Assembly (NCBI RefSeq): GCF_900114835.1
Contig: NZ_FOUJ01000002.1
Coordinates: forward strand, 266,374 to 330,373
Length of the DNA stretch: 64,000 nt
From: Methanolobus profundi
GTDB taxonomy: Archaea > Halobacteriota > Methanosarcinia > Methanosarcinales > Methanosarcinaceae
Reading direction: 5' to 3'
Numbering within the stretch: position 1 is the first letter of the stretch; each line of letters begins with the position of its first letter. Shown in pieces: positions 2,393-51,984 of the stretch. The translations under genes were made by a program, and so were the position numbers. The notes beneath the pieces are model-generated. The model searched no databases, was not told the DNA's origin, and saw only the letters and a list, made by a program, of their open reading frames with translations.

Positions 2393-2701
2393 TCAATTCT
2401 CAGTATCTTTATTGCTCTCGCCCTTTCCTCTGTAGTATCCTATTGTATATCCGATTATTATTGCACCAAATGCAGCCTGAAGTGCAAAGAGCAGACTTTC
2501 TGTTTCGCCACCTGGTGGTTCAAAGAGATATTGCTGGAACCATGGTTCTGCAGGCTCATATCCGGGAGATATCTCAGAGACAAGGTCACCGGCTGCACCG
2601 TCTGCACCGCCAAATTCAGAGTCAGGATTTGCTGCCACTCCATAGAAGAACTGACCGGCAAAGATCAGCACCACTATAGCTACTATATACTCTAACTTCA
2701 C
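2393..2701 (-). CDS. cbiN: Cobalt transport accessory membrane protein CbiN
   Basis: Small membrane protein that activates CbiM in cobalt uptake. It is 102 residues long with two transmembrane helices (about residues 3-23 and 72-90) and a polar loop outside the membrane between them, the standard CbiN topology. The loop holds the PWFQQYLFEPPGGETESLLF stretch typical of the family, with the ESLLFALQAA helix start. Its ATG overlaps the cbiM stop codon by 4 nt (2698-2701), showing translational coupling. The C-terminus is charged. Confidence 0.92.
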   Translation of the reverse strand: MKLEYIVAIVVLIFAGQFFYGVAANPDSEFGGADGAAGDLVSEISPGYEPAEPWFQQYLFEPPGGETESLLFALQAAFGAIIIGYTIGYYRGKGESNKDTEN

Positions 2702-3393
2702 TGCATTGCCTCCTTAAGTTTTGCAACTGTGGTGGTAGTAAGTACATTAAGATCGACAAGTACATCACTCTTGATCTGAACCACATATTTCATAATAAGT
2801 GCTGTAAGAGCACCTTCAAGTATTGCAAGTGGTACCTGAGTAGTTGCAAATACTCCGGCGAATGCTATGAACGAGGCTAATATCCCTCCAGTCGCCGAAG
2901 GGAAGGCCAAAGCAAGTTGCAGAGAAGTTACAACATAAGTCACCCAGTCCGCAATTGCTGTTGCAAGGAAGACATTCATGTAGAAGTTCATGCCAGCTTT
3001 AGATGCTGCCTTGTAGAACATGTAAGCAACAAGAGGACCAATTATTGCCATTGATGCAGCGTTTGCACCAAGGGTCGTTATACCTCCGTGTGCCAGGAAA
3101 ATTGCCTGGTAGAGAAGAACTATTACACCAAGAACTGCTGTAATTGCAGGACCGAAGAGAATAGCTGCCATTCCGGTACCGGTTGGATGAGAGGAACTTC
3201 CGGTAACGGAAGGAAGCTTCAGGGATGAAAGAACAAATATGAACGCTCCGGCCACTGCCAGCAGAGGGACTACCTCTCGTCTTTCACTTACGAGCTTGTT
3301 CATCTTGTACATACCGTACAATATAACTGGAATAGATATTGCAAACCATGCTTGCCACCATGGGTACGGCAGAAAGCCCTCAAATATATGCAT
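2698..3393 (-). CDS. cbiM: Cobalt-binding transporter subunit CbiM
   Basis: Substrate-specific S component of the cobalt ECF transporter. The protein begins MHIFEGFLP; the family binds the metal through the mature N-terminus and a His near position 2, and both His2 and the HIxEG-like start are present. It is 231 residues long with about six to seven transmembrane helices and contains the SSHPTGTG stretch typical of CbiM near residues 66-73. Start at ATG 3393 is supported by GGAAGGTGA about 7 nt upstream. It is the first gene of cbiMN(QO) and is separated by 305 nt from cbiE, which is upstream on the same strand. A NikM (nickel) assignment cannot be excluded from this protein alone. Confidence 0.92.
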   Translation of the reverse strand: MHIFEGFLPYPWWQAWFAISIPVILYGMYKMNKLVSERREVVPLLAVAGAFIFVLSSLKLPSVTGSSSHPTGTGMAAILFGPAITAVLGVIVLLYQAIFLAHGGITTLGANAASMAIIGPLVAYMFYKAASKAGMNFYMNVFLATAIADWVTYVVTSLQLALAFPSATGGILASFIAFAGVFATTQVPLAILEGALTALIMKYVVQIKSDVLVDLNVLTTTTVAKLKEAMQ

Positions 3394-3698
3394 TAATTTT
3401 CACCTTCCATTTTTGATCACATTACAATAATCAATTAGTGTACCATCCATAATCAACTAAAATTGTTTTGGATACTGGATGTAATATGTTATGGTACATA
3501 AACATAACGATTCACGATTTAGATTACCACTGTTTTTCAAAGTACTAACAATAGATACCTAATTGAGAAATAACACTATGCACATACGCACACTAGTGTC
3601 ATTGTTAATGCATTGGATTCATGTGAATTATCAGGAAACAAAGCAAAACAGAATCAATTGTTCTATTATAAAAAAATAAAGTTAAATTGAAATAAGAT
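3394..3698. other. 305-nt spacer between cbiE and cbiM
   Basis: No gene seen. Just after the cbiE stop, the minus strand has the U-rich run TTTATTTTTTTATAA, which can end transcription in archaea. Nearer cbiM lie a dyad (3488-3508) and the cbiM ribosome binding site. I saw no cobalamin riboswitch core. Confidence 0.6.
3488..3508. promoter_or_regulatory. Inverted repeat GTTATG-N9-CATAAC upstream of cbiM
   Basis: Perfect 6-bp arms separated by 9 nt, about 95 nt upstream of the cbiM start, next to TATA-like AT-rich sequence. The position and the gene it serves suggest an operator for a metal-sensing repressor (NikR or DtxR type), but the regulator is not identified in this window. Confidence 0.45.
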
Positions 3699-5334: not shown

Positions 5335-7368
5335 CTATCCGGTCCTTTTGAAGAGCTTTGCCAGTTCATCCATAGTGAAAGATATCATGGTCGGACGACC
5401 ATGTGGACATGTGTATGGATTATTACAGAGCATCAATTGGCGAATAAGTTCTTCCATCTGTTTGGTATTGCACACAGCGCCTGCCTTTATCGCTGCCCTG
5501 CATGCCATAGTACTGCAAAGAAGGTCATACCTCTCAGTATCCTCCTTCACCCTGCCAACAGATAGCAGATCAGAGATTATATCATGGATAACATCAGTAT
5601 TTTCCAGCTTCCCGAAGATGCTTGGAACTGTTGTAACCACATAGCTCTTAGGACCGAACTCGGATACGGAGAATCCCATCTCCTCAAGTTGCGGAATGAA
5701 CTCTTCGATAATGGCCTTCTCCTTCTGGCTCAGGTCAAGTGTCACAGGAGTGATAAGTTCCTGCCACCCCAGGTCCTGCATCCTCAGCACCTGCTCATAC
5801 ATTATGCGTTCATGTGCAGCATGCTGATCAATGAGAATAAGCTTGCCATCCATATCACTTATTATGTAAAGGTCAGCATATTGCCCGTAGACCTTCACAT
5901 CCGATGGAGTAAAAGATGCATTCAGTTCTGCCACTTCATCTAATGTAACGCTCATCTGCAGCCTTTCACTTTTTTTCAGACGGCGCTGAGTGTCTTTTGC
6001 AGGATATTGATAAGGCTCTTTTTCCTCTTTTATCACATTCTTCCTTGATATCTCATCTGATGAACTATCTGGAATTATGATGGGAGCGGTGGTTTCAGAA
6101 TTGGAGACGGCCTGATAACCATCGGAAGATGCAGTAGAGGGAACTGGAACCTGTGACCTGGATGACACTGCACTGCCTGATCCATCCTGTTCGGGAACTT
6201 CTGTTGAGGCAGGCAATCTCACTGATCCTGTTGCTTTGTAAGCATTAGATATTTCTGAAGAAGATGAAGAAGAAGGTCTTTCAGGTTCACGAACATTCAA
6301 CCGTGACTGGACAGGAACATCTTTTTTATTCAACTGTACTTCGGGCACAAGAGAATCCCTGGCAAGAGCTTTCTCTACAGCCGATACGATCATAACACTG
6401 ATCTCTTTCTCATGGCTCAGTCTGACTTCCCTTTTAGCAGGATGAACATTCACATCAACGTTCACCGGGTTGATCGTGAAATTCAGGAAGGCTGCCGGAT
6501 AGCGGCCTTTTGGAAGCAGGGTATAGTAACCAAGTCTGACAGCATTGCTTAACTGTTTTGAGAATATGGGTCGTCCGTTGATAAGAAATACCTGCAGGTC
6601 CTTCCCGCTTCTTGTAAGTTCGGGTTTTGAGATGTAACCTGAAATAGATATGAGGTCTGAATCATATTCCAGAGGAACAAGGGAACGTGCAACGTCAGCA
6701 CCATAGAGATGAACGATGCTGTCAAGCATTTTGACAGATGAAGGTGATCTCAAGGTCACCTTGCCATCTATAATAAGAGTAAATGATACATCAGGATGTG
6801 CAAGGCAGTTTCTGGAAACCACATCAACGATATGTGCTATCTCGGTTCTGGCACTTTTGAGATACTTCTTTCTGGCTGGTGTACTGTAGAACAGGTCATT
6901 GACAAGTATGCTGGTTCCCACAGCAGTCCCTGCGGAAGTGATACTTCTTATCCCACTGCTGTCAACAACGACCTTTGTCCCTTCCAGCTCACTTTCCTGC
7001 CGGGTGACAAGTTCGACCTTTGCAACCGAAGCAATGGATGCCAGTGCCTCACCCCTGAATCCCATTGTGAGTATGCTGTCAAGGTCCTCGATCCTGTTTA
7101 TCTTGCTCGTAGCATGCTTTTTAAAGGCAATGGAAGCATCCGTGTGGCTCATTCCGATGCCATTGTCAACAATTAACATGCTTTTCGTGCCATACCCCCC
7201 TATTTCCACTCGAACATCGGTTGCATGGGCATCAATAGAGTTCTCAATAAGCTCCTTTACCACAGATGCGGGACGCTCAATAACCTCTCCCGCTGCTATT
7301 TTATTGATAGTGGACTCATCCAGCAATCTTATTCTGGAACTATTCATATCACATGCTTTGTCTGTCAT
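5335..7368 (-). CDS. mutL: DNA mismatch repair protein MutL
   Basis: ATPase and matchmaker in mismatch repair, acting after MutS. At 677 residues it is full length. The N-terminal GHKL ATPase shows ENSIDAHATD near residue 42, the DNGIGM motif near 68-73 and GFRGEAL near 104-110. A Ser/Pro-rich linker covers about 360-470. The C-terminal domain carries DQHAAHERIMYE, the metal-binding nicking endonuclease motif (DQHAxxExxxxE), and later CPHGRP, so it is of the endonuclease-bearing type rather than the E. coli type. Start at ATG 7368 follows AGGAAGTGA. mutS lies 1.4 kb upstream beyond an opposite-strand MFS gene. In archaea, MutS/MutL are thought to have come from bacteria. Confidence 0.96.
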   Translation of the reverse strand: MTDKACDMNSSRIRLLDESTINKIAAGEVIERPASVVKELIENSIDAHATDVRVEIGGYGTKSMLIVDNGIGMSHTDASIAFKKHATSKINRIEDLDSILTMGFRGEALASIASVAKVELVTRQESELEGTKVVVDSSGIRSITSAGTAVGTSILVNDLFYSTPARKKYLKSARTEIAHIVDVVSRNCLAHPDVSFTLIIDGKVTLRSPSSVKMLDSIVHLYGADVARSLVPLEYDSDLISISGYISKPELTRSGKDLQVFLINGRPIFSKQLSNAVRLGYYTLLPKGRYPAAFLNFTINPVNVDVNVHPAKREVRLSHEKEISVMIVSAVEKALARDSLVPEVQLNKKDVPVQSRLNVREPERPSSSSSSEISNAYKATGSVRLPASTEVPEQDGSGSAVSSRSQVPVPSTASSDGYQAVSNSETTAPIIIPDSSSDEISRKNVIKEEKEPYQYPAKDTQRRLKKSERLQMSVTLDEVAELNASFTPSDVKVYGQYADLYIISDMDGKLILIDQHAAHERIMYEQVLRMQDLGWQELITPVTLDLSQKEKAIIEEFIPQLEEMGFSVSEFGPKSYVVTTVPSIFGKLENTDVIHDIISDLLSVGRVKEDTERYDLLCSTMACRAAIKAGAVCNTKQMEELIRQLMLCNNPYTCPHGRPTMISFTMDELAKLFKRTG

Positions 7369-7432
7369 TTTTCACTTCCTGTCCACGATAAGTATATTTA
7401 TGAACTCCAACCCTCAAGCCAAAAATATCTGT

Positions 7433-7456
7433 TTGTTAGTATTTTTGTGTTTGCAT
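7433..7456 (-). promoter_or_regulatory. 24-nt element upstream of mutL, identical to one upstream of mutS
   Basis: The plus-strand text runs TTGTTAGTATTTTTG and continues to TTGCAT. The same 24 bases occur at 11433-11456 in the same orientation relative to mutS. It lies 65 nt upstream of the mutL start. Read on the minus strand it includes AAAAATACTAA, which could serve as a TATA box, but 24 identical bases exceed what core promoter elements need. It sits in a divergent promoter region, so the MFS gene at 7533 could also be affected. Confidence 0.6.
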
Positions 7457-7532
7457 TCGTAAATAAACAATTAATGCCCAACACAATTATATCCATTCGT
7501 GATGTTAGAGGCGACATAAAGTTAGAAGGTTC

Positions 7533-8717
7533 ATGATGAACGATTCTGGAAAAATTAAGAACATAGTACCTTTGTTAGCTCTTTTGACAGCCTTCCCGGC
7601 TTTTTCCACAGACATGATATTGCCTGCGATACCGTCCCTTGCCATTCTATGGGACAAGCCTCTGGCAGTGGTCAATCTGATACTCATTTGTTTCTTCGTG
7701 ACCTATGGGTTCTCTTTACTATTCTATGGACCGATATCAGACAGGTACGGACGTAAGAAGCCCCTGATGGCCGGCATCACATTATACATATTTGCCAGTA
7801 TACTCTGTTCAATGGCCAGCGGGGCCACCGCATTGATAGTGTTCCGAATACTACAGGCTGCTGGTGCTGCTGCCAGTGCAGCATTGTCAATGGCAATGAC
7901 AAAGGACATATTCTCAGGAACTGAAAGACAGAGGATACTTGCCTATATCGCTGTGATCATGGCACTTGCACCAATGTTCGCCCCTATTGTTGGAGGATGG
8001 ATACTGGCATACCTTAAATGGAACTGGATATTCATAGCCCAGGGGATCATGGGACTTATCGGTCTCCTCGGGGTTATCAGAACACCAGAGACACTGAAAG
8101 AGAGATCGAAAGTACCCATATCTAAAGTAATGCATTCCTATGGTAACCTTCTGCTCAACAGGAACTATGTTATCATGGTCCTTGTGATGTCCGTAAGCCT
8201 GTTACCACTATACAGCTTCATCGCCAGTTCCTCAGCCCTTTACATCAACGGATTCGGAATGACAGAACAGGGCTTCAGTTACTTCTTCGCCTTCAATGCC
8301 CTTGCACTTATGGCAGGGTCCATGTCGTGTCTGAAACTGACGGACAGGATGAACTCGAACCATTTGATAACTGCGGGTTTTGCAGGAATAACACTGGGAG
8401 CAGCAGCCATCCTTCTGATAGGTCAGAACGGACCCTGGAGCTTCGCAATACCAATGGCACTTGTGACATATTCAATAGGCCTCAGCAGACCACCAAGCAA
8501 CCACCTGGTACTCGAACAGGTACATAAGGATGCAGGAGCTGCATCATCCCTGTTGATATTCACATACTTCACCCTCGGAGCTGTAGGAATGTGGCTCGTT
8601 TCCCTTGAATGGATGGAGCGCATGCAGATACTTGGAACCATCACTCTGGTCTGTGGTGCTCTTGTACTGGCTGCCTGGCTGATATTACAGAAAAAAGGAA
8701 TTGGTACAGAGAACTAG
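7533..8717 (+). CDS. MFS drug-resistance transporter, Bcr/CflA type
   Basis: Proton-coupled exporter of the major facilitator superfamily with about 12 transmembrane helices over 394 residues. The loop between helices 2 and 3 carries GPISDRYGRKKP, the family's motif A, and helix 4 has RILQAAGAAASAA, like the Bcr/CflA drug:H+ antiporters. The start has two adjacent ATGs (7533 and 7536); AGAAGG lies about 7 nt upstream. It is divergent from mutL and convergent with mutS. The substrate cannot be told. The C-terminus runs to within 30 nt of the mutS stop. Confidence 0.85.
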   Translation: MMNDSGKIKNIVPLLALLTAFPAFSTDMILPAIPSLAILWDKPLAVVNLILICFFVTYGFSLLFYGPISDRYGRKKPLMAGITLYIFASILCSMASGATALIVFRILQAAGAAASAALSMAMTKDIFSGTERQRILAYIAVIMALAPMFAPIVGGWILAYLKWNWIFIAQGIMGLIGLLGVIRTPETLKERSKVPISKVMHSYGNLLLNRNYVIMVLVMSVSLLPLYSFIASSSALYINGFGMTEQGFSYFFAFNALALMAGSMSCLKLTDRMNSNHLITAGFAGITLGAAAILLIGQNGPWSFAIPMALVTYSIGLSRPPSNHLVLEQVHKDAGAASSLLIFTYFTLGAVGMWLVSLEWMERMQILGTITLVCGALVLAAWLILQKKGIGTEN

Positions 8718-8745
8718 TATCTAAAAATAAAGGGCTTATAAAGCA

Positions 8746-11394
8746 CTATGAAAGCCTGCCCTTTATCTCGTTCAACTTATTCAATGCCTCGATAGGTGTC
8801 ATTGAATTGATATCCAGTTCTTTAAGCTCTTCAATTACAGGATCAGGAGTTGACTCACTATAATTTGCATCCTGATCGAAGAGTATGACCTGAGTGTATT
8901 TGGCACTGCTACGCTGTTTCTTCCTGCCTTTGCGGTCCTCTTCACTGATCATACACTCACTTTCAATGTCCTCAAGGATCTCTTTAGCCCTTGAAGTGAC
9001 CGCATGTGGAACACCTGCTATCCTTGCAACATGGATACCATAACTCCTGTCAGTAGCACCCGGAACGATCTTACGCAGGAATACAAGATCATCTCCCTCC
9101 TCCTTTACAGCGATATGATAGTTCTTCACGCGCTTGAGATTACCTGCTACCTCCGTGAGCTGATGGTAGTGGGTGGCGAAAAGTGACCTTACACCAACAC
9201 GTCCTTTGTTGTGGATATATTCAACCACGGCCTTTGCGATACTGTAACCATCGTAAGTACTGGTACCCCTGCCGATCTCATCCAGCAGCACGAGGCTCTT
9301 TGGAGTTGCATTGTTCAGGATATTGGCAAGTTCCACCATCTCCACCATGAAGGTACTCTGGCCACTTGCAAGGTCATCGAAGGCTCCAACTCTCGTAAAG
9401 ACCCTGTCAACAACACCTATAGATGCATGTGAAGCAGGAACAAAAGAACCTGCCTGTGCCATTATAACGATCATGGCGATCTGTCGCATGTATGTGGATT
9501 TACCTGCCATGTTGGGTCCGGTTATGAGCTGGAACTGATCCTCACTGCAATCCATCTCCGTATCGTTTGGAACAAAACCTCCCGGAACCGTACTCTCCAC
9601 AACAGGATGCCTTCCATCCCTGATAAGAAGCCTGCAATCTGGAGTGATCGCCGGCCTTACATAATTATTATTAGCTGCCACCTCTGCAAGGTTTGCCAGA
9701 ACATCCAGCATACCGATAAGGGCTGCCGTTTCCTGTAACTGCCTTGAGTGGGATGCTACGATAGAATTTATCTCAGTGAGAAGTTCGTGTTCAAGGGCCA
9801 CCATTTTCTCATCAGCTGAGAGAATGGCACTCTCACGTTCCTTTAGCTCAGGAGTATAGAACCTCTCGGCGTTTGTCATGGTCTGCTTTCTGATATAATC
9901 ATCAGGCACCTGTGCTATGTTCGCTTTTGTGACCTCAAGATAATAACCGAATACCTTGTTGTAACCAACCTTCAGTGATTTTATCCCGCTCCTGTCACGC
10001 TCTTTCTGCTGGAACTTAGCGATCCATTGCTTACCGTTCTTCGAGAGGTCGAACAGTTCATCAAGCTGATCATTGTATCCGGGTTTGATCATTCCCCCGT
10101 CCCTCACACTAAGTGGAGGTTCTTCAACTATGGCACTGTCGATCAGTTTTGCAAGATCGCCAAGTTCCCCAAAGGAAGATAATTGCGATACAAGGCTTTC
10201 CAGCAGGTCAACGCCCTCACATTCTACGAGAGAGTCGAGCAAAAGTGGAACTGATTCGAGGGACTTCTTCAGGGAATAAAGGTCCCTTGCGTTGGAGTTA
10301 CCATACATAACCCTTCCAACAAGTCGCTCCATATCCTTTACATAGGAAAGATGAGCACGAATATCAAAGCGAACAAGAGTATTATCATGAAGCCATGCAA
10401 CCGCATCAAGACGGTCATTTATAGCATCCACTGAGACAAGCGGTTTCAGCAGCCATTTCTGAAGCTGTCTTCTTCCCATTGGCGTTTTTGCATCATCAAG
10501 TACCCCGATAAGAGAGGAATCATTGCCCTCACCTCTCACATTCCTGACAATCTCGAGGTTCCTCAGGGTGATTGCGTCCAGCACCATGAACTCTGAATCA
10601 AAATATGTCTTGAGGGACTGAACCTGTGAGAGTTCTCTCATCTGAGTGTCGGTGGCATAGCGCAATGCTGCACCTGCAGATGATACAGCGACCACCAGTT
10701 CACTGCATCCCATGCCTTCAAGAGTTGAGACATTGAAATGCTGTTTAAGCATTTTCTCAGCCATTCCCATATCGAAGGCATCCTCGTTGAAATCATGAAT
10801 GATTATACGGAGTTCCTTCAGACGCTCTGTAAGGTGAGGATCATTGAACAAAGAAGGCGGCATGATGCACTCGGACGGACCCATACGTGCAACCTCACTG
10901 GCGATGCGGTCATATGGTGCACTATCCGTGAACTGCGTTGTCAGGAACTCGCCGGTGGAAATATCCAGGAACGACAATCCGTACTCATCCTTCTCACCAT
11001 ATAGTGCCATCAGATAATTATTAGAAGAATCCGAGAACATGGATGAATCCATTGCAGTTCCGGGAGTTACAACCCTCACGACACCACGTTTCACAACACC
11101 TTTGGCCTTCTTCGGGTCCTCAAGCTGCTCACATATAGCAACCTTGTAACCCTTTTTGATGAGCCTCGGGAGATAGGTGTCGATAGCATGATAAGGAATA
11201 CCAGCAAGCGGCATCTTCTCCCCGTCCTTACTCTTACCACGAGTGGTCAGGGTGATCTCAAGTTCTTTAGCTATGGTCTTTGCGTCCTCGCCAAAGGATT
11301 CATAGAAGTCCCCCATCCTGAAGAATATGAGGGCATCCTTATGCTCTTCCTTGGCAGCATAGTATTGTTGCATGGCAGGGGTTACTTTGCTCAT
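8746..11394 (-). CDS. mutS: DNA mismatch recognition protein MutS
   Basis: Recognises mismatches and recruits MutL. The 882-residue protein is full length for bacterial-type MutS1. Domain I carries the mismatch-reading FYES motif (GDFYESFGEDA near residue 28-38). Connector, lever and clamp domains follow. The ATPase has Walker A GPNMAGKSTYMRQ near 626 and Walker B VLLDEIGRGTSTYDG near 700-714, then a helix-turn-helix dimer interface. Start at ATG 11394 follows GGATGATC. It is convergent with the MFS gene and 39 nt downstream of the 24-nt element shared with mutL, so the two repair genes may be co-regulated although they are not in one operon. Confidence 0.97.
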   Translation of the reverse strand: MSKVTPAMQQYYAAKEEHKDALIFFRMGDFYESFGEDAKTIAKELEITLTTRGKSKDGEKMPLAGIPYHAIDTYLPRLIKKGYKVAICEQLEDPKKAKGVVKRGVVRVVTPGTAMDSSMFSDSSNNYLMALYGEKDEYGLSFLDISTGEFLTTQFTDSAPYDRIASEVARMGPSECIMPPSLFNDPHLTERLKELRIIIHDFNEDAFDMGMAEKMLKQHFNVSTLEGMGCSELVVAVSSAGAALRYATDTQMRELSQVQSLKTYFDSEFMVLDAITLRNLEIVRNVRGEGNDSSLIGVLDDAKTPMGRRQLQKWLLKPLVSVDAINDRLDAVAWLHDNTLVRFDIRAHLSYVKDMERLVGRVMYGNSNARDLYSLKKSLESVPLLLDSLVECEGVDLLESLVSQLSSFGELGDLAKLIDSAIVEEPPLSVRDGGMIKPGYNDQLDELFDLSKNGKQWIAKFQQKERDRSGIKSLKVGYNKVFGYYLEVTKANIAQVPDDYIRKQTMTNAERFYTPELKERESAILSADEKMVALEHELLTEINSIVASHSRQLQETAALIGMLDVLANLAEVAANNNYVRPAITPDCRLLIRDGRHPVVESTVPGGFVPNDTEMDCSEDQFQLITGPNMAGKSTYMRQIAMIVIMAQAGSFVPASHASIGVVDRVFTRVGAFDDLASGQSTFMVEMVELANILNNATPKSLVLLDEIGRGTSTYDGYSIAKAVVEYIHNKGRVGVRSLFATHYHQLTEVAGNLKRVKNYHIAVKEEGDDLVFLRKIVPGATDRSYGIHVARIAGVPHAVTSRAKEILEDIESECMISEEDRKGRKKQRSSAKYTQVILFDQDANYSESTPDPVIEELKELDINSMTPIEALNKLNEIKGRLS

Positions 11395-11432
11395 TGATCA
11401 TCCACACATAATTGGTGCTGCAAATTATCGGG

Positions 11433-11456
11433 TTGTTAGTATTTTTGTGTTTGCAT
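11433..11456 (-). promoter_or_regulatory. 24-nt element upstream of mutS, identical to one upstream of mutL
   Basis: Same 24 bases and same orientation as 7433-7456; here it lies 39 nt upstream of the mutS start. Flanking sequence on both sides differs between the two copies, which argues against a recent duplication of a larger block and for retention of a functional site. Confidence 0.6.
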
Positions 11457-11945: not shown

Positions 11946-12410
11946 ATGACAGATATCGCTTCACTGAAAAATGAGATAGTTTCAGGTTGGAATGAGACAT
12001 CAAAGTATCTGATATCCCATCACGAGTGCCATGAATACTACAAATGTCTGGAACTGAACTACAGGGGAAAAAAGCAGTATATTTGTTCCAGATGCCTTGG
12101 AGTATATATCGGCATATTATCAGGGATCCTTTACTATAGTTACATTTCAGCAACCCACCTTTCGTACACAATGATCGCATTACTTCCTATGGCAGCACTC
12201 ATAGATTGGTCGGTCACAGCTTTTAGGATCAGCAAGAGCAACAACATTTTCAGAGTAACGTCCGGTTTCCTGCTGGGAATTGCATATTTGAATGGAGCAT
12301 TACTATTTCTCCAGAACAGGACCGACTACATGATACTTGCAATAGGAGTATTCTATGCATCCGCCTCCCTGTTGCTGCTTTATTTGAAGAAAAGAAGAAT
12401 GCAAATTTAA
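11946..12410 (+). CDS. DUF2085-type membrane protein
   Basis: Predicted membrane protein of unknown function. The N-terminal soluble part has HHECHEYYKC and then YICSRCLGVYIG, the His/Cys cluster and CsRCxGxYxG motif that define DUF2085. Three to four hydrophobic helices follow, and the C-terminus is basic (LKKRRMQI). The frame also opens at ATG 11880, which would overlap the TM2 gene by 29 nt; ATG 11946 leaves the conserved region intact and avoids the overlap, but neither start has a strong ribosome binding site. Likely co-transcribed with the TM2 gene. The Cys/His cluster could bind a metal; this is inference. Confidence 0.75.
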   Translation: MTDIASLKNEIVSGWNETSKYLISHHECHEYYKCLELNYRGKKQYICSRCLGVYIGILSGILYYSYISATHLSYTMIALLPMAALIDWSVTAFRISKSNNIFRVTSGFLLGIAYLNGALLFLQNRTDYMILAIGVFYASASLLLLYLKKRRMQI

Positions 12411-12434
12411 AATAATGCGGTCTGATGATCCCTG

Positions 12435-13118
12435 TCAGGAATTCATGATCACCAGCATAGTATTCCCACCTTTCTGGAACTCATAATTCACCTTTTTCTC
12501 GGAGACGAGAAGACCACGGGATAACAGAGAATCTATCACCTCGTCAAGATGTATCGACTTTCTTGAATTAAGGTCTACCAGTGGGAATATCCTTAGCTCA
12601 TTTGCAACCCTTAGCAGTTCGTCAATGGCCTGAAGATGGAATTCAAAGGAAAGCTGTTCCGAATACAGGAACAGAAGATGTGATACCAGTGCAAGGTCAA
12701 AAGAATTATCATCAAATGGCAATTCCGGCAGTCCACCTGCTATATAGCGACCCTCTTCCTTGCCGTTCTCAAAGTCCCCAAGGAACAGTTTCATGGAAGA
12801 CATACGGATCTCACCCAGTTCCTCTACTGAGGAAATGCTCTCCCATACGAACTTATCCTGATTCTCCTGGGTCTGCTCAAGAACCTCGGTGTAGGTCTCA
12901 TCGATCCTCTGCTCGATGACAGCCCTGTCAAGAGAATATATCGGATCCACAGATACAACAGACCTGCCCTTTCGTGTCATCTCGCAGTTAAAACTTGCAG
13001 GACCATCACCACAACCCAGAATAGACTTGTCAAGGTCTTCGTCTGTAAGACTGAACATGTCGACATATTCCTGAAGAGAACGTCCCCAAGGAACTACATT
13101 CTGATAATGGATTGACAT
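12435..13118 (-). CDS. SAM-dependent methyltransferase-like protein
   Basis: Probable class I methyltransferase of 227 residues. Seen: a motif I-like strand-loop ILGCGDGPASFN near residues 33-44, the acidic end of strand 2 (SVVSVDP near 53-59), and the motif IV-like region LPFDDNSFDLALVSHLLFLY near 131-150. A long helical insertion (about 65-105) separates them. The C-terminal sheet (SRGLLVSEKKVNYEFQKGG) is usual for the fold. The substrate is unknown. It is convergent with the DUF2085 gene and divergent from the next. The ATG lies about 30 nt from an AT-rich TATA-like run and has no clear ribosome binding site, so its mRNA may be leaderless. Confidence 0.65.
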   Translation of the reverse strand: MSIHYQNVVPWGRSLQEYVDMFSLTDEDLDKSILGCGDGPASFNCEMTRKGRSVVSVDPIYSLDRAVIEQRIDETYTEVLEQTQENQDKFVWESISSVEELGEIRMSSMKLFLGDFENGKEEGRYIAGGLPELPFDDNSFDLALVSHLLFLYSEQLSFEFHLQAIDELLRVANELRIFPLVDLNSRKSIHLDEVIDSLLSRGLLVSEKKVNYEFQKGGNTMLVIMNS

Positions 13119-13224
13119 AAAAAATGATTGTTTCGATGTCAGATAAATGTGGTGAATATGATGAACAATATAAAAGATAAACAGCGTGCAAAAGTATATG
13201 ATTTTACAAAATTAATTATGATTA

Positions 13225-13713
13225 ATGTTTGGGATTGAATCATTATACTCTGCAGAAGGTATGTTTGCCTATGCACTGGTATTTTTGCTGGCAGCTACAC
13301 CGTGGATAGAAATACTTGTTGTAATCCCGGCAGGAATAGCTCTTGGACTAAATCCTCTGGCAGTTTCCATACTTGCATTCACAGGAAACCTGACAACTGT
13401 CTATTTACTGATTTTTGCCTACCAGTACTTATCCTCTACATTTGATAAACACAAATCCGGCGAGAACAAAAAACAGCTTTCAAAGAGAAAAAAGAAAGCA
13501 CTTCATATCTGGAACAAATATGGTTTTCCAGGGCTTGCATTCATCTCTCCGTTGACAGTTGGCACACATTTTGCTACATTTGTTGCCCTTAGTTTCAAAT
13601 CAAAAAAATATATGGTGACAATGTGGATTACAGGGAGTATTTTTGTCTGGACTGTTATTGTCACGGTTGTATCCTATTACGGAATAGAAAGTCTGAAATG
13701 GCTTTTGGGATGA
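13225..13713 (+). CDS. Small multidrug export (COG2426-type) membrane protein
   Basis: Membrane protein of 162 residues with four hydrophobic helices. The N-terminal TPWIEILVVIPAGIALGLNP stretch (residues 25-44) and the later HIWNKYGFPGLAFISPLTVG match the putative small multidrug-export family (PF06695). A basic cytoplasmic loop (KRKKKALH) separates the two halves. The actual substrate is unproven for the family. Its promoter region is shared with the divergent methyltransferase gene; a TATA-like AGTATATGATT lies about 30 nt before the ATG, which suggests a very short or absent 5' UTR. Confidence 0.78.
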   Translation: MFGIESLYSAEGMFAYALVFLLAATPWIEILVVIPAGIALGLNPLAVSILAFTGNLTTVYLLIFAYQYLSSTFDKHKSGENKKQLSKRKKKALHIWNKYGFPGLAFISPLTVGTHFATFVALSFKSKKYMVTMWITGSIFVWTVIVTVVSYYGIESLKWLLG

Positions 13714-15997: not shown

Positions 15998-18900
15998 TCA
16001 GACCACGGTCACATTCATTCCCTTCACCTCAGCCACAACCTCTGGATTGTAGTACGAATACGCTTTACTCTCTGATACAACAGCCTTCACAGGGAACAGT
16101 GCCTGAACCTGCATGCTGAAACTCAGCACCTCGCCGGGCTGCATGTCATCGATATAGAATATGACCTTCCTGCCTGCGATCTCGTAGCGGGTTATCTTAT
16201 CCTCGTTCTCTTTGGTAGCCTCAAGACTTGAAGAGACCGGACTAAAACCAGTGGGAACCGCAAGGTCAACTATCATCATTCCACTTGAACTCACACTGCC
16301 ATCGATACCCTGAATGCCATTGTACTTCACAGTTGCATTCACAGTGACGATATCGTTCACTGCAACATCGGTGGAATCATAGTCCACATCCAGTTCGATC
16401 TCATCGTACTCGATAGCATCCGGCAGAATGACGTTGAAGCGCCTTACAAGCTGGTAGTTCAGGTCACCGGTCCCATCCATCTCAAGAGTGATACTGGATG
16501 TTCCCTCGGGGATCTCGATTATCTGGACCACATCGAAGTTCTGCTGGTTTACATCCACCGACCTTATCTCAGTTCCGTCAGTAATCACATGCACCGTTGC
16601 ATCGATATCCCTTCCTGCAGATGCTGCCGCGCTCATCAGTGCCCTGAAAGCCATGACGGTGTCCTGAGTACTGGAGAATCCTCCGTTGGAATTGCGCTGT
16701 GCAGCTATCCATTTCAGTGATGATATCGCTGTGGGGTTCTTTGCCTCGATAAGAGCAAGGGTTGCGTATGCGGTTGTTTCCACATTCTTGCTGGATGGTG
16801 CTATGTAGCTGTAACCAAAGTCATCGTATGGCATTGGAACTGCGCCGTCACCATATCCCCAGTAGGTGCCGTCATCATCCTGCTTTGATATCGCCAGCAG
16901 GTCGTTCAGTGCTTCATCAGCGAACGGACTGTCGAGTTTCTGCAACGCAAGGGTGCCGATAGCAAGAGCATACGGGTCTTCCTGGTCTGCAAGGTTATCC
17001 TCAAGATACTTCTGTGCGTTTGCCATGACAACAGGACTTACAGAACCATACTCATCCAGTGCCAGGGTCGTGTATGCTGTCAGTGCATAGGTGCCGCTGA
17101 CACCACCCATCATGTCCTGATGGATAACAAAACCGACCTGCTCCCATGAACCATCCTCCTGCTGATGGGATTCGATCCAGTCAGCAGCCTCGGAAAGGAT
17201 ATTCTCATCGATCGTGGTCACATCCCTTGCAGCACTGAACTGGGACAGCACGAATGAAGTGAGCCAGAGACTTCCGCTCTCATCACTCTCACCAAATGCT
17301 GAGAAGGAACCATCACTGTGGCGGTATGTCAGTTCACGCTGGTAACCGGTGATGATATACATCTCGGCCTTTGCCCTCACTTCCGGATTGTCCTGACCTG
17401 TTGCTTTCAGATATCTCAGAACCTCCACATCGGTGGAGAAGAGCATCATGTTCTGTTCACCACAGCCATAAGGCATACCGAGCAGGTCATCCACTCCGCT
17501 TATGCTCTGTGCCACGATGCTCGGGGTGAAGCTCACAAGCACCTTCCCGGAATCCGGAACAATATCAACAGGTAGTGTTGTATCAAGTTCCACTGAACCA
17601 TTGTTCAGAACTCCATTGTCAACAAGCTCACGGGTAGCGCCCTCTGCTTCAACAATGATATCCTTCCTGACAGCATCCGCCCTCTTTGTGGTCTGACCTG
17701 TGATCTCAACTAATTGTTTTCCAACCTCTGTCGGGCTTATCGTGAAACTGGCATATCCAACACCATTGGCATCAACGGTCACGGTCTGCACATCATCACC
17801 AATGATATCGAACCATTCCGCACCTGATAGTGTCAGTTTGACATCCTGCTCTGTGTCCAGATAATTGTAGACCTGCACCTGTACAGGGAACTCTTCACTC
17901 CTTGTTACAGAATATGGCAGATCCGGGTCAACAAAGAAATCCTGGAACACCGTCAGGCTGGATTCAGATATACCGATTCCCTCAGGACCTGAAGATACTG
18001 CATGAAGTCTCCATGTAGTGATGCTGTCAGGTGCTGTCAGGTCCACACTTGCAAGACCTGCATCGTCAGTGAGAAGCTCAGGCATCCAGACCCAGGTTTC
18101 AGGGAAGAACTGGCGCACACGCTGAACTTCTGCGAGTTCTTCATCTGTGTTAACACTAGAGGAAGTGAGCTCATATCCAGATTCCGCATCCATCGCAGGC
18201 ATTTCTTCCACTGCCTCTTCTTCCACTACCATGTCATCCATAGCCACATCCACTTCCATTCCAAACCCTGCAAATTTACCATTATCAATCGCCATAGATT
18301 CAGAACGTGGAACCTCTATTCCCGGCGAAGCCATTACCACCATTCCGGCATTCTCCAGCGTATCATAGGCACCTTCAGAATACCAGTATGGGTGTGATTC
18401 TGCCTGCGGTTCCATGAAACGCTTTTCAAGCTCATCGAATACCTGTTTGAGATTCAGCCTGCCCTCGCTGAGCGCATATACAGACTCATCCACGATGGAG
18501 AATCCTATCATAGACTGGCTTCCGGCATCGAAGTCAACTGTAACATCATCCCCCGGTTCTGCCATTTCACTGCTGAAGGAGCTTGAAAGGTCGATCTGTG
18601 TGGAGAATTCCACATCGAACGGAAGTACATCCACAGAAACCTCGCTATTTGGATTTATCATGTAGGCAACGACCTTTGCCTGTGGGCTCATCTGCGGTGT
18701 CACTGGTATGCTGATTTCATTTTCATCGCTGGTAGCAGAATATACGGTCCTGCCATTGGCGAAGACATCATAATACACAGTACCCGGATTTGTGGAGTAG
18801 ACATGGAAAGATATGCCATCTCCAACTTCCGGCACACCGTCGCTGGTCTGGGTGATATGGATGAAGCTGGCACTTGGAGAATAAGCTGCATTCAGTGATT

Positions 18901-20239
18901 CACTGGTCCAGGCATTACTGTCATCAATATATGCATCCATATACAGGTTGGTACTGCCATTTGGGATATCCAGTTCAATAAGCGCAATACCATTCTCCGT
19001 TGTAACTGTCATTTCATCTTCTGTATATTTATAGGAGTCATCACGCAGTCTGGTGTCCACTATGACCTCAGTATCCACAGGTTCCCCTCCCGGGTCCTTT
19101 GTTACAACAAGCACCTGCAATGGCATTCCTGGTTTTATGGTACTTGATTCAGGTATAAGCTGAAGGACTATCGGTGACCCGGATATAGTAAGCAACTTAT
19201 TGGTGCTCTCACTGTGATTGCCCGTATCTGTGACGGTCACGTTGAGCATGAGACTTGCCTGCCCGCCTGCACCGTATGTACCGGCTGCATATTCCACCTC
19301 AGGAAGCTCGAACTCGATCAGGCCATCCTCAAGTGTACCGGAAAATGTTGCATATTGCTCCCATTCACCAACATAACGTGAAGCTTCAACCAGAACATCG
19401 CCCTCTACTTCCTTTCCGAAGAAATAGTTGGCTGATACTGTACCTGTGATCCCATCGGATACAAGGAACCATTCCTGTGGTGTTTCCAGTGAGACATCGA
19501 ACTTAGGAAGCACATATTTGTCTACCTGAATGTCGACATTGGAACTTGAATCGCCTGCCGTTGCAACCATCTTCCATGTACCAAGGTTCAGTTCTGATGC
19601 CAGAGGAAGGTCGAAAGAAGCAACACCATATTCATTGGAGTCCAGTTCCTCTTTGAATACTTTGATGCCTTTTGCATCTGTGATCTCCACAGTGATGTTC
19701 TCCTGCACAGGAACAAGGTTATTGTTCAGGGAGAGGATCCTTCCATGGATCGTCTGTCCGGGTTTGTAGATCGGCTTATCGGTCTCAATAAAAAGAGGAT
19801 TGTTTCTTACCACTTCCACTGTTGCCTTGAATTCGGTATCGAACCCTGATGGTTTTGCAGTGAGCACATAACTGCCTTCCTCAACATCAGGCACTTCAAA
19901 GGAAGCAACAACATTCCCATCCTCAGATGTTGATGCCTGTATGAGAGATATCTCATTGTTGTCCTCATCAGTAAGAGTGTATTCCACACAGCGTACCACC
20001 GGTTCACTATCAGAGAAAGCCGCCATGGTCACTGAACTCTCCCCTCCTGAGAAAAGCATCTTCGGTGCAAGTATCAGGAACTCATCTCCTGATGAAGAAA
20101 GCTGATCGGTGCATGGACCCGCTATATTCGAAGGCATGACTGAATCGAGAGTGTCGCCTCCGATACACCCCGAGATAATAACTGCAAATAACGATACCAG
20201 AACAATTAATGTTCCTGTTTTCTTTCCTGTAAATTTCAT
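15998..20239 (-). CDS. Alpha-2-macroglobulin family lipoprotein with intact thioester
   Basis: Predicted secreted, lipid-anchored protease trap. I chose ATG 20239 (GGAGTGG upstream); it gives a signal peptide ending in the lipobox ISGC, so Cys25 would be lipidated. The 1413 residues show, in order, MG1-MG4-type beta domains including ETDKPIYKPGQTIHGRILSL near 150, a Met/Glu-rich bait-like segment near 620-710, FPETWVWMPELL opening the A2M domain, the thioester motif YGCGEQNMM near 925, the alpha-helical thioester domain and a receptor-binding-like C-terminal domain. Length, order and motifs resemble animal thioester proteins (A2M, CD109, TEP) more than the usual bacterial 1600-1900-residue form paired with PBP1C. 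No penicillin-binding protein is nearby, which fits a pseudomurein-free archaeon. Confidence 0.92.
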   Translation of the reverse strand: MKFTGKKTGTLIVLVSLFAVIISGCIGGDTLDSVMPSNIAGPCTDQLSSSGDEFLILAPKMLFSGGESSVTMAAFSDSEPVVRCVEYTLTDEDNNEISLIQASTSEDGNVVASFEVPDVEEGSYVLTAKPSGFDTEFKATVEVVRNNPLFIETDKPIYKPGQTIHGRILSLNNNLVPVQENITVEITDAKGIKVFKEELDSNEYGVASFDLPLASELNLGTWKMVATAGDSSSNVDIQVDKYVLPKFDVSLETPQEWFLVSDGITGTVSANYFFGKEVEGDVLVEASRYVGEWEQYATFSGTLEDGLIEFELPEVEYAAGTYGAGGQASLMLNVTVTDTGNHSESTNKLLTISGSPIVLQLIPESSTIKPGMPLQVLVVTKDPGGEPVDTEVIVDTRLRDDSYKYTEDEMTVTTENGIALIELDIPNGSTNLYMDAYIDDSNAWTSESLNAAYSPSASFIHITQTSDGVPEVGDGISFHVYSTNPGTVYYDVFANGRTVYSATSDENEISIPVTPQMSPQAKVVAYMINPNSEVSVDVLPFDVEFSTQIDLSSSFSSEMAEPGDDVTVDFDAGSQSMIGFSIVDESVYALSEGRLNLKQVFDELEKRFMEPQAESHPYWYSEGAYDTLENAGMVVMASPGIEVPRSESMAIDNGKFAGFGMEVDVAMDDMVVEEEAVEEMPAMDAESGYELTSSSVNTDEELAEVQRVRQFFPETWVWMPELLTDDAGLASVDLTAPDSITTWRLHAVSSGPEGIGISESSLTVFQDFFVDPDLPYSVTRSEEFPVQVQVYNYLDTEQDVKLTLSGAEWFDIIGDDVQTVTVDANGVGYASFTISPTEVGKQLVEITGQTTKRADAVRKDIIVEAEGATRELVDNGVLNNGSVELDTTLPVDIVPDSGKVLVSFTPSIVAQSISGVDDLLGMPYGCGEQNMMLFSTDVEVLRYLKATGQDNPEVRAKAEMYIITGYQRELTYRHSDGSFSAFGESDESGSLWLTSFVLSQFSAARDVTTIDENILSEAADWIESHQQEDGSWEQVGFVIHQDMMGGVSGTYALTAYTTLALDEYGSVSPVVMANAQKYLEDNLADQEDPYALAIGTLALQKLDSPFADEALNDLLAISKQDDDGTYWGYGDGAVPMPYDDFGYSYIAPSSKNVETTAYATLALIEAKNPTAISSLKWIAAQRNSNGGFSSTQDTVMAFRALMSAAASAGRDIDATVHVITDGTEIRSVDVNQQNFDVVQIIEIPEGTSSITLEMDGTGDLNYQLVRRFNVILPDAIEYDEIELDVDYDSTDVAVNDIVTVNATVKYNGIQGIDGSVSSSGMMIVDLAVPTGFSPVSSSLEATKENEDKITRYEIAGRKVIFYIDDMQPGEVLSFSMQVQALFPVKAVVSESKAYSYYNPEVVAEVKGMNVTVV

Positions 20240-20380
20240 GATACCACTCCAGAACGGGTATTGTTTTCCTGTTACAGGATTTGGAGTGGAACTGTATATA
20301 CTTTGCTTAAACTTCAAAGATGTTCGTAGTTATGTGGAGGAGAGCAGGGTGGTTTTGAAAAACAGAGAATAATAAAAAAA

Positions 20381-46701: not shown

Positions 46702-46739
46702 AAAAAATAAAAAAGAAATGAAGGTTTTAAACCTTCATT
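46702..46739 (-). terminator. Terminator overlapping the stop of the surface-protein gene
   Basis: AATGAAGG and CCTTCATT arms with a TTTAAAA loop (near-palindrome), then TTTCTTTTTTATTTTTTG on the minus strand. The hairpin includes the stop codon. Confidence 0.7.
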
Positions 46740-49700
46740 CATTCCTGTTCTTTGGACGCAACAAAGCTGCTACCAGAGAAACACCAAGAATTCCGAATAT
46801 CATTTCAAATCCTGGTGTGTCAGGTGTTTCTTCTTCCACAGGCATTTCATCAGTATCATCTGCCATCTCACCTGTACCTGTCGTACTATCCTCTGAGGTT
46901 ACATAGGTCTCTTCGCTGTCCGAACGGGTGCTTATTGCAAATGTAGAGAATCCCGGTGTCTTAGCAACATAGTACACGTATTCACCATCATCATCTGAAA
47001 CAGATGTCTCAAGCTGCTCCCAGGCGCTTCCTGCATAGTGAGAAAGTACGACATCGTCTGTTGATATTCCATTCTGCTCAAGCCATGTCTTCTCTACCTT
47101 GAAGGTAATGGTGGCTCCTGCAATGTTCTCAGCATCGATATCACTTACTTCGATGTTCAGGTAACTGTGAACCTTGCCCGGTGCAGCGCCCGGAATATTG
47201 TCAGGCTTTGAGTCAAGTTTCTGTACGGATACGGATATCTTTGCAACTTCCACATCGGACTCCACTTCAACTCCTGTAACCTCTGTCTTTGTCAGCTCCA
47301 CAGAGATGACCTTCACAGGTTCGCCAAGTATCTTGCCGGTAGATTCCTGAGTTACGATCTTAGCTCCCTCATAAGTGCTTCTGGCATTATTGAGGATCTC
47401 CCGGGTCACAGATGAACCACCGTCAGAACTGCTTCCTGGATCGGAGCTTGGTGCTGAAGGACCGGTGTATGAAAGACTTGTGTTGGTGACCGCGTTACTT
47501 GCATTATCCGTTGCGATAACTGTCACGGTATTTGCTCCATAAGCTGCGGATATGGTTCCGTTCCATATGTCACTGCCCTGATCCACAAGAGATGTTCCGG
47601 CTGCAGTAACGCTCTTTATGCCGCTTCCACTGTCAGATACATTCACAGTGACCTCGATACTTTCGCCATATGATGTCGGTGTCTCGGTGCTAAGTGTCAG
47701 ATTATTGAATACAGGGTCGGTGTTGTCAATTATCACTTCAAAAGTTGCTGATGCACTGTTATTGACATTACCTGCCTGATCCGTTGCTGTCACATTGAGC
47801 AGATATGTACCATCGGCTCCTGCGATCACAACACTGTCATTCACCCAGTAGTCGGTGGATGAGACACGATCCAGTATCACAGAGCTATATGCACTTATGC
47901 TGCTCACATTATCGACCGACATGGCAGTGGAAACACCTGAAAGACTGCCGTCAGAGACTGTTGCATTGAGTGTCAGGACAGAGCCATTGTTAACTGCTGT
48001 ATAACCTGTCGGATATTCGGTCTGAGCAGCGGAGATCAATGGTTCGGTGTTGTCTATCTTGATAGTAAGGTTCACCGAGTCATTCACATTGCTTGCATTG
48101 TCATAGGCCACTACAGTAAGGTTCAGCGTTCCCTCTGCAGATGCTGCAATTATGAGCGAGTCATTGAACCAGTAGTTACCTCCTGCATGTTCAAGGATCG
48201 CCAGTGATGAAGCATTCACAAGAGAAACATTGACAGTAGCATTATTGACACCTGTTCCGGAATCGATTATAGTAGCATTGAGGTCAAGGGTGTCACCATC
48301 CATGAACCACTGGGAACCCGTAGGGGAAACCGGAGTTACAGTTGGTCCTACATTGTCGATAACAACTGATATGGAACCACTGGAGTTCATATTGGTTGCG
48401 TTATCGGATGCCCTTACTGGCAGGATGACCGTTCCTGAACTCGAATTGTTAACGATAACAGAGAGTGTATAGTCATCGCCACCTGCTGCAGTGAAGGATT
48501 CCCAGGAAAGGGAACTGTTAAGACCCGATGCATTGACCTCTACAGAAGAAGCATTGATACCGGAGAGGACATCGGTAACAGTTACGTTCAGTACAACAGT
48601 ACCGCCATCACTGACGGCATTCATGCCAGCCTGATAAACAGCTTCAGTATTGGTGAACACTGGAGCAGTGTTGTCTACTTTCACTGAAAGATTGACACTG
48701 GTATTCACATTACTGAGATTGTCAGAGGAACTGACAGTGAGGTTGATAGTCCCTTCGTTTGATGTCAAGATCGTAAGTGAGCTGTTGGTCCAGTAATCAC
48801 CAACGGAATTGGTCAGGATCGCAGTACTGGTGGCTGAAGCATCAGAGGTATCCACAGTTACACTACCCATTCCGGCAGAGCCAACATCGGTACTGGATAC
48901 GTTGATGTCAAGGGTAGAGCCATTGATAAGCCAACTGGTACCATCAGGAGAGATACCAGTAACCAGTGGTGCGGAATTATCAAGGACCACTGAAATGCTC
49001 TGACTGGTATTGACATTGGTGGCATTGTCAGAGACACTTACCGGCAGAAGAACAGTTCCGGTGCTGGAATTGTCAACGAGAACAGATAATGTGAAGTTGT
49101 CACCACCTGCTGAACTGAGTGTTTCCCACGTTAGGGAACTGTTAAGACCGGAGACATTGACCTGCACTGAAGAGGAATTGATACCTGAAAGGGTTTCAGT
49201 TGCACTGAGGTTCAAAAGAACTGTGCCACCACTGTTTACTACGGAATAACCGGACGGATAAGAAGCAACTGCATTGCTCACTATAGGAGCGGTGTTGTCG
49301 ATCTTAATTGTAAGGTTCACCGAGCTGTTCAGGTTGCTTGCGTTGTCATAGGCCAGCACAGGAAGACCAATAGTTCCTTCGGAAGATGCAACGATCGTAA
49401 GTGAACTATTGACCCAGCTGTCACCTGCAATGTTGTCAAGTATTGCAAATGTCGAGGCATTCACAGCAGAGACATTCACAGTAGCATTCTTTACACCTGA
49501 TGTTAGATCGTTAATGGTGGCGTTCAGGTCAAGTGTATCACCATCCCTGAACCATTGGGAGCCTATTGGGGAAACTGCGACCACGGATGGACCGTCATTG
49601 TCGATGACAACTGATATGGAACCACTGGAGTTCATATTGGTTGCGTTATCGGATGCCCTTACTGGTAGGATGACTGTCCCTGAACTTGAATTGTTAACGA

Positions 49701-51966: not shown

Positions 51967-51984
51967 ATATACCCTCTCCGTCAA

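Follow-up and report, generated by a model that had tools for sequence, protein, structure and literature searches.

A gene-specific element upstream of mutS and mutL in Methanolobus and its relatives, probably a mismatch-repair core promoter

In Methanolobus profundi the mismatch-repair genes mutL and mutS are preceded by the same 24 bases, even though the two genes are separated by a transporter gene on the other strand. This raises the question of what the shared sequence does and how it came to stand before both genes. The locus was analysed within a 64,000-nucleotide stretch of genomic DNA (the window), to which all coordinates below refer unless a genome is named. The relevant features are:

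5335-7368, minus strand: mutL, 677 aa (Pfam DNA_mis_repair and MutL_C)
7433-7456, minus strand: 24-nt element, mutL copy; exact match, found before mutL in 14 genomes from a single Methanolobus clade
7533-8717, plus strand: MFS transporter gene between mutS and mutL (Pfam MFS_1), its presence varying among relatives
8746-11394, minus strand: mutS, 882 aa (Pfam MutS_I to MutS_V)
11433-11456, minus strand: 24-nt element, mutS copy; exact match, conserved in Methanolobus and other genera

Position, extent and exclusivity of the element

The initial annotation placed identical strings in the same orientation relative to mutL and mutS, and this was borne out: both copies match ATGCAAACACAAAAATACTAACAA exactly on the gene strand, ending 64 bases before the ATG of mutL (start at 7368) and 38 bases before that of mutS (start at 11394). 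Pfam agrees that an MFS gene on the opposite strand keeps the two genes apart. When the whole genome (3,107,200 bases) was searched at up to three mismatches, ATGCAAACACAAAAATACTAACAA had two sites in total, those at mutL and mutS, and no copies at unrelated places. The number of matches expected at 3 mismatches from shuffled windows was 0.00, none of them containing even one. When the window's upstream regions (200 nt each, 780 pairs) were compared, the longest string otherwise shared was 14 nt. Two identical copies 4 kb apart could in principle be a dispersed repeat, or the end of a mobile element, that lies at two places by accident. The genome-wide search refutes a mobile repeat, as it returned no further copy, and the position relative to the gene is constant across genera; we regard the likelihood of such an origin as negligible.

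A length of 24 nt had been assigned to the element. This is the length of the exact identity, but the likeness runs on, with GATA 3 bases further at both sites. The shared module, consisting of the 24-mer and this second conserved block, measures about 31-36 bp. Alignment of 70 distinct copies gave the consensus aATGCAAAnACAAAAATA[CG]nnAnnAnnn[GA]ATA, in which the order on the gene strand is ATGCAAA(C/A)AC, then AAAAATA, then GATA at a fixed distance. The inner parts of the two copies are:

11440-11446, minus strand: AAAAATA core of the mutS copy, a proposed non-canonical TATA box; little or no variation among 70 distinct sequences from three families
7440-7446, minus strand: AAAAATA core of the mutL copy, a proposed TATA box on the same basis
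11426-11429, minus strand: GATA block 3′ of the mutS copy at fixed spacing, a proposed -10 region, delimited by per-column conservation
7426-7429, minus strand: GATA block 3′ of the mutL copy, likewise delimited by per-column conservation

Exclusivity was measured in 27 Methanolobus genomes with a query for the core and second block (AAANACAAAAATASNNANNANNNRATA, one mismatch), using the reversed pattern as a control. Matches lay at mutS or mutL in 37 of 41 cases and elsewhere in 4; the control gave 5 matches, so the four are at the chance rate. A repair regulon with further members elsewhere had been envisaged, and with the remainder at chance level no further member was found in these 27 genomes. 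A degenerate scan of about 85,000 genomes with ATGMAAAVACAAAAATASYAACA returned 20 stretches. Seventeen belong to Methanosarcinaceae (Methanolobus, Methanococcoides and others), and each of these lies where mutS or mutL begins; the other three come from unrelated bacteria and have neither gene there. Family-wide, 42/112 genomes had a match at up to three mismatches, and all those examined among the matches with two or fewer mismatches were at mutS or mutL. Sub-motif searches yielded weaker matches without a pattern (one set was checked gene by gene, and many were inside genes), while a de novo EM search for promoter motifs in 31 upstream regions returned only a noise motif. In a literature search covering titles and the beginnings of abstracts, we found no description of the element and no report on the control of archaeal mutS and mutL.

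The element at mutS

From the mutS copy to the ATG there are 36-39 nt in Methanolobus, 39 nt in Methanococcoides and 19 nt in g21, and the DNA directly upstream of it is unrelated between species. Outside the family, 12 of the 20 f5 genomes searched carry ATGCAAAAACAAAAATAGGAATAA or a variant of it at mutS, with (G/A)AATATC after it, one per genome save for one extra A-rich match; in f2 the sequence is CCCCAAAACAAAAATAC followed by CAATA. Since it occurs at mutS in other genera and, in diverged form, in two other families, the element is primarily a mutS element. The expected conservation in relatives was found upstream of mutS, but at mutL it extends to one Methanolobus clade only. Two additional mutS genes were noted: one at G125:C36:67676-70282 whose upstream element is of the f2 type, a case of transfer or contamination, and one at G003:C19:795-3434 with 45% identity.

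The element has also been lost. Methanosarcina-like genera and several others lack it, and in some Methanococcoides (G056, G061 and G062) its left half is gone, which indicates that mutS can do without it. In G024 the element and mutS are set apart by an insert of about 1.1 kb; here 3/24 positions of the mutS element have decayed and GATA has become GGTA, while the mutL copy in the same genome is perfect. This decay shows only that the element matters when it adjoins mutS. The insert itself (L194, C1, about 12300-13500) carries an opposite-strand gene with collagen-like repeats, the C-terminal part of which resembles, by eye, a phage tail collar protein.

Within the genus, conservation was 0.94 at mutL and 0.90 at mutS (the displaced G024 copy included). 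Both values are unexceptional: of 16 promoters tested in the genus, 11 contain a 24-nt window conserved at 0.90 or above. A high score within the genus was therefore no longer counted in favour of a regulator. In a comparison of six genera the scores were 0.86 for the mutS promoter and 0.63 for the TBP promoter; these genera were picked for having the element, and the TBP promoter is the only control gene. With within-genus conservation ordinary, the strong points of the element are its sharing, exclusivity and depth. A block before cbiM, a cobalt-uptake gene (2698-3393, minus strand), offers a parallel in the window: at about 3480-3503 it is likewise 24 nt long and similarly conserved within the genus (0.93), but it is partly palindromic and precedes a transport gene. 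This strongly conserved block, GTTTATGTACCATAACATATTACA, is possibly a metal-regulator site. The window also encodes, on the minus strand, an archaeal alpha-2-macroglobulin family protein of 1439 aa with bait and thioester domains (15998-20317) and a 1749-aa protein with Ig-like domains and long internal repeats (46735-51984; for example at 48362 and 49607, 1245 bases apart).

The mutL copy and the split operon

The mutL copy is confined to one Methanolobus clade, in which an inverted MFS gene parts mutS from mutL. All 14 split genomes of this clade have it (14/14) and the two contiguous ones do not (0/2); in the latter, G012 and G020, mutS directly adjoins mutL. In a MutS tree of 29 rows, G012 and G020 fall into one supported group with the 14 genomes that have a mutL copy. 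In some genomes of the other Methanolobus clade the same MFS gene also lies between the two genes, and a different conserved block precedes mutL; at L078-L083, which belong to that other clade, the block upstream of mutL reads roughly AAGGAAAAGTATGTGTATTCCCTGATACTTCTTA.

Within a genome the mutS and mutL copies evolve separately, each keeping its own downstream sequence, and their exact 24/24 identity in the window is most simply explained if both have retained the ancestral form. Apparently, the old mutS promoter was copied in front of mutL in the split lineage. Alternatively, the two copies could have converged independently on a common promoter type, without duplication. Convergence would fit the unrelated flanks of the window copies past about 36 bp and the lack of concerted evolution between copies in one genome, but the likeness covers both the 24-mer and the GATA.TTT part, and the motif, being absent from other genes, does not represent a common type of promoter. 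We consider convergence improbable.

On the favoured reading, the element would originally have been the core promoter of mutS, or of a mutS-mutL operon, going back to a common ancestor of several families in the order. A copy of the promoter module would have been placed before mutL in one Methanolobus clade, with the MFS gene inverted between the two genes, and selection would hold both copies, leaving MutS and MutL, which are partner proteins, still under the same control. In this clade mutS and mutL are likely co-controlled, and both genes probably retain one control switch. As the initial annotation proposed, the element, which is real, gene-specific and conserved upstream of mutS in relatives, would bring the two genes under shared control.

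Core promoter or regulator site

We estimate a probability of roughly 0.7 that the element is a mismatch-repair core promoter with an unusual TATA box, ancestral to mutS and copied as a module before mutL. This reading draws on the minimum spacing to the gene, a canonical TATA box in an apparent homologue, the second block at the position of melting, and the decay in G024. From the centre of AAAAATA to the ATG the distance ranges from 29 to 116 nt in about 70 copies. A start 22-30 nt past the TATA position would fall at or before the ATG in all of them, and the minimum of 29 nt agrees with a TATA box whose centre lies about 27 nt ahead of the start. At Methanosarcina acetivorans msvR, 27 nt separate the centre of the TATA box from the mapped start downstream of it (PMC3729527). 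The apparent homologue at mutS in g22 (G088), ATGAAAAAACAAATATATCAATAC, has a canonical TATA (ATATAT) at the position in question, and g19 has a TATA-like box at the corresponding position. In the proposed layout ATGCAAA(C/A)AC would supply an upstream and BRE-like part, AAAAATA would occupy the TATA position and GATA, at about -12, the melting region, with transcription starts predicted near 11416 for mutS and near 7416 for mutL. These sequence features suggest that the element contains a core promoter. The initial annotation had taken so long an identity to exceed a TATA box plus BRE; position, the apparent exchange for a canonical TATA in a relative and the 29-nt minimum all suggest that the core promoter lies within it.

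The likeness to the archaeal core promoter (PMC5378194) extends to the upstream position, an A-rich stretch before a box at the TATA position, a minimum spacing to the ATG and, in a relative, a canonical TATA that has apparently taken the place of the box. In contrast to that promoter, the element has AAAAATA in place of TATATA, is found at mismatch-repair genes only, and has a conserved stretch of about 31-36 bp that recurs across genera and, in diverged form, across families. BRE and TATA are predicted for 81.6% of Methanolobus psychrophilus primary transcripts in this dRNA-seq paper, the text of which makes no mention of mutS or mutL (PMC5378194). AAAAATA is a non-canonical and poor TATA box, and the TBP promoter in the same genomes has TATATA boxes. 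A specialised extra TBP that reads the odd TATA was considered and rejected: most Methanolobus show two TBP-repeat matches, which fit one TBP gene and so indicate no specialised TBP. Three such matches were seen in the genome of the window (G000) versus two in most Methanolobus, perhaps reflecting an extra TBP-like gene.

The stretch ATGCAAACACAAAAATACTAA is readable as MQTQKY-stop, and a leader peptide or an RNA element in the 5′ UTR was considered. Although the window copies have an ATG and an in-frame stop, single-base insertions break the frame in several Methanolobus copies, and others have lost the stop or the ATG while keeping the DNA motif. For an RNA element, neither a fold (z-score +1.7) nor an Rfam match was obtained at the element. 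A leader function of either kind is very improbable.

More weight attaches to a possibility that is still less likely than not, namely that a dedicated regulator, with a regulon of mutS and mutL only, has its operator here; this operator would overlap the promoter, and the bound protein would block or recruit TBP/TFB. Conservation reaches back to ATGC, some 10 nt before the TATA position and beyond the usual extent of a BRE, and ATGC is still kept at L005-L009, where one base is inserted between it and the core, as if it were a separate contact. Its conservation across this change of spacing hints, at the level of sequence, at an additional contact. The element is also exclusive to mismatch-repair genes, occurring nowhere else above chance, and a weak TATA suits a promoter in need of help. 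Against a regulator, inspection of the 24-mer showed neither dyad nor direct-repeat symmetry, the genes next door include no consistently recurring regulator, and conservation of this degree within the genus is common (11/16 promoters). Single-site factors require no symmetry. No third target was present in any genome searched, and hence no autoregulated regulator gene bearing the site. The nearest known parallel in methanogens, the MsvR operator, is a short conserved motif that overlaps or flanks the BRE/TATA and is bound by its regulator; it is an inverted repeat, TTCGN7-9CGAA, with more than 40 sites in M. acetivorans, and lies also at the gene of the regulator itself (PMC3729527), and the element shares none of these features. 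Neither half of the MsvR motif (TTCG or CGAA) lies within the element. That a dedicated regulator with mismatch repair as its sole target operates in several families of the order, sets MutS and MutL together and could tune the mutation rate seems unlikely.

The element is a specific, testable sequence that marks mutS and mutL alone and is older than the genus. If it is the core promoter, as is probable, its apparent duplication, which would have preserved co-expression after the operon was split, gives a clean natural example of a promoter that followed its gene. Should a dedicated factor bind it, the element would offer a way into the control of mutation rate in these archaea.
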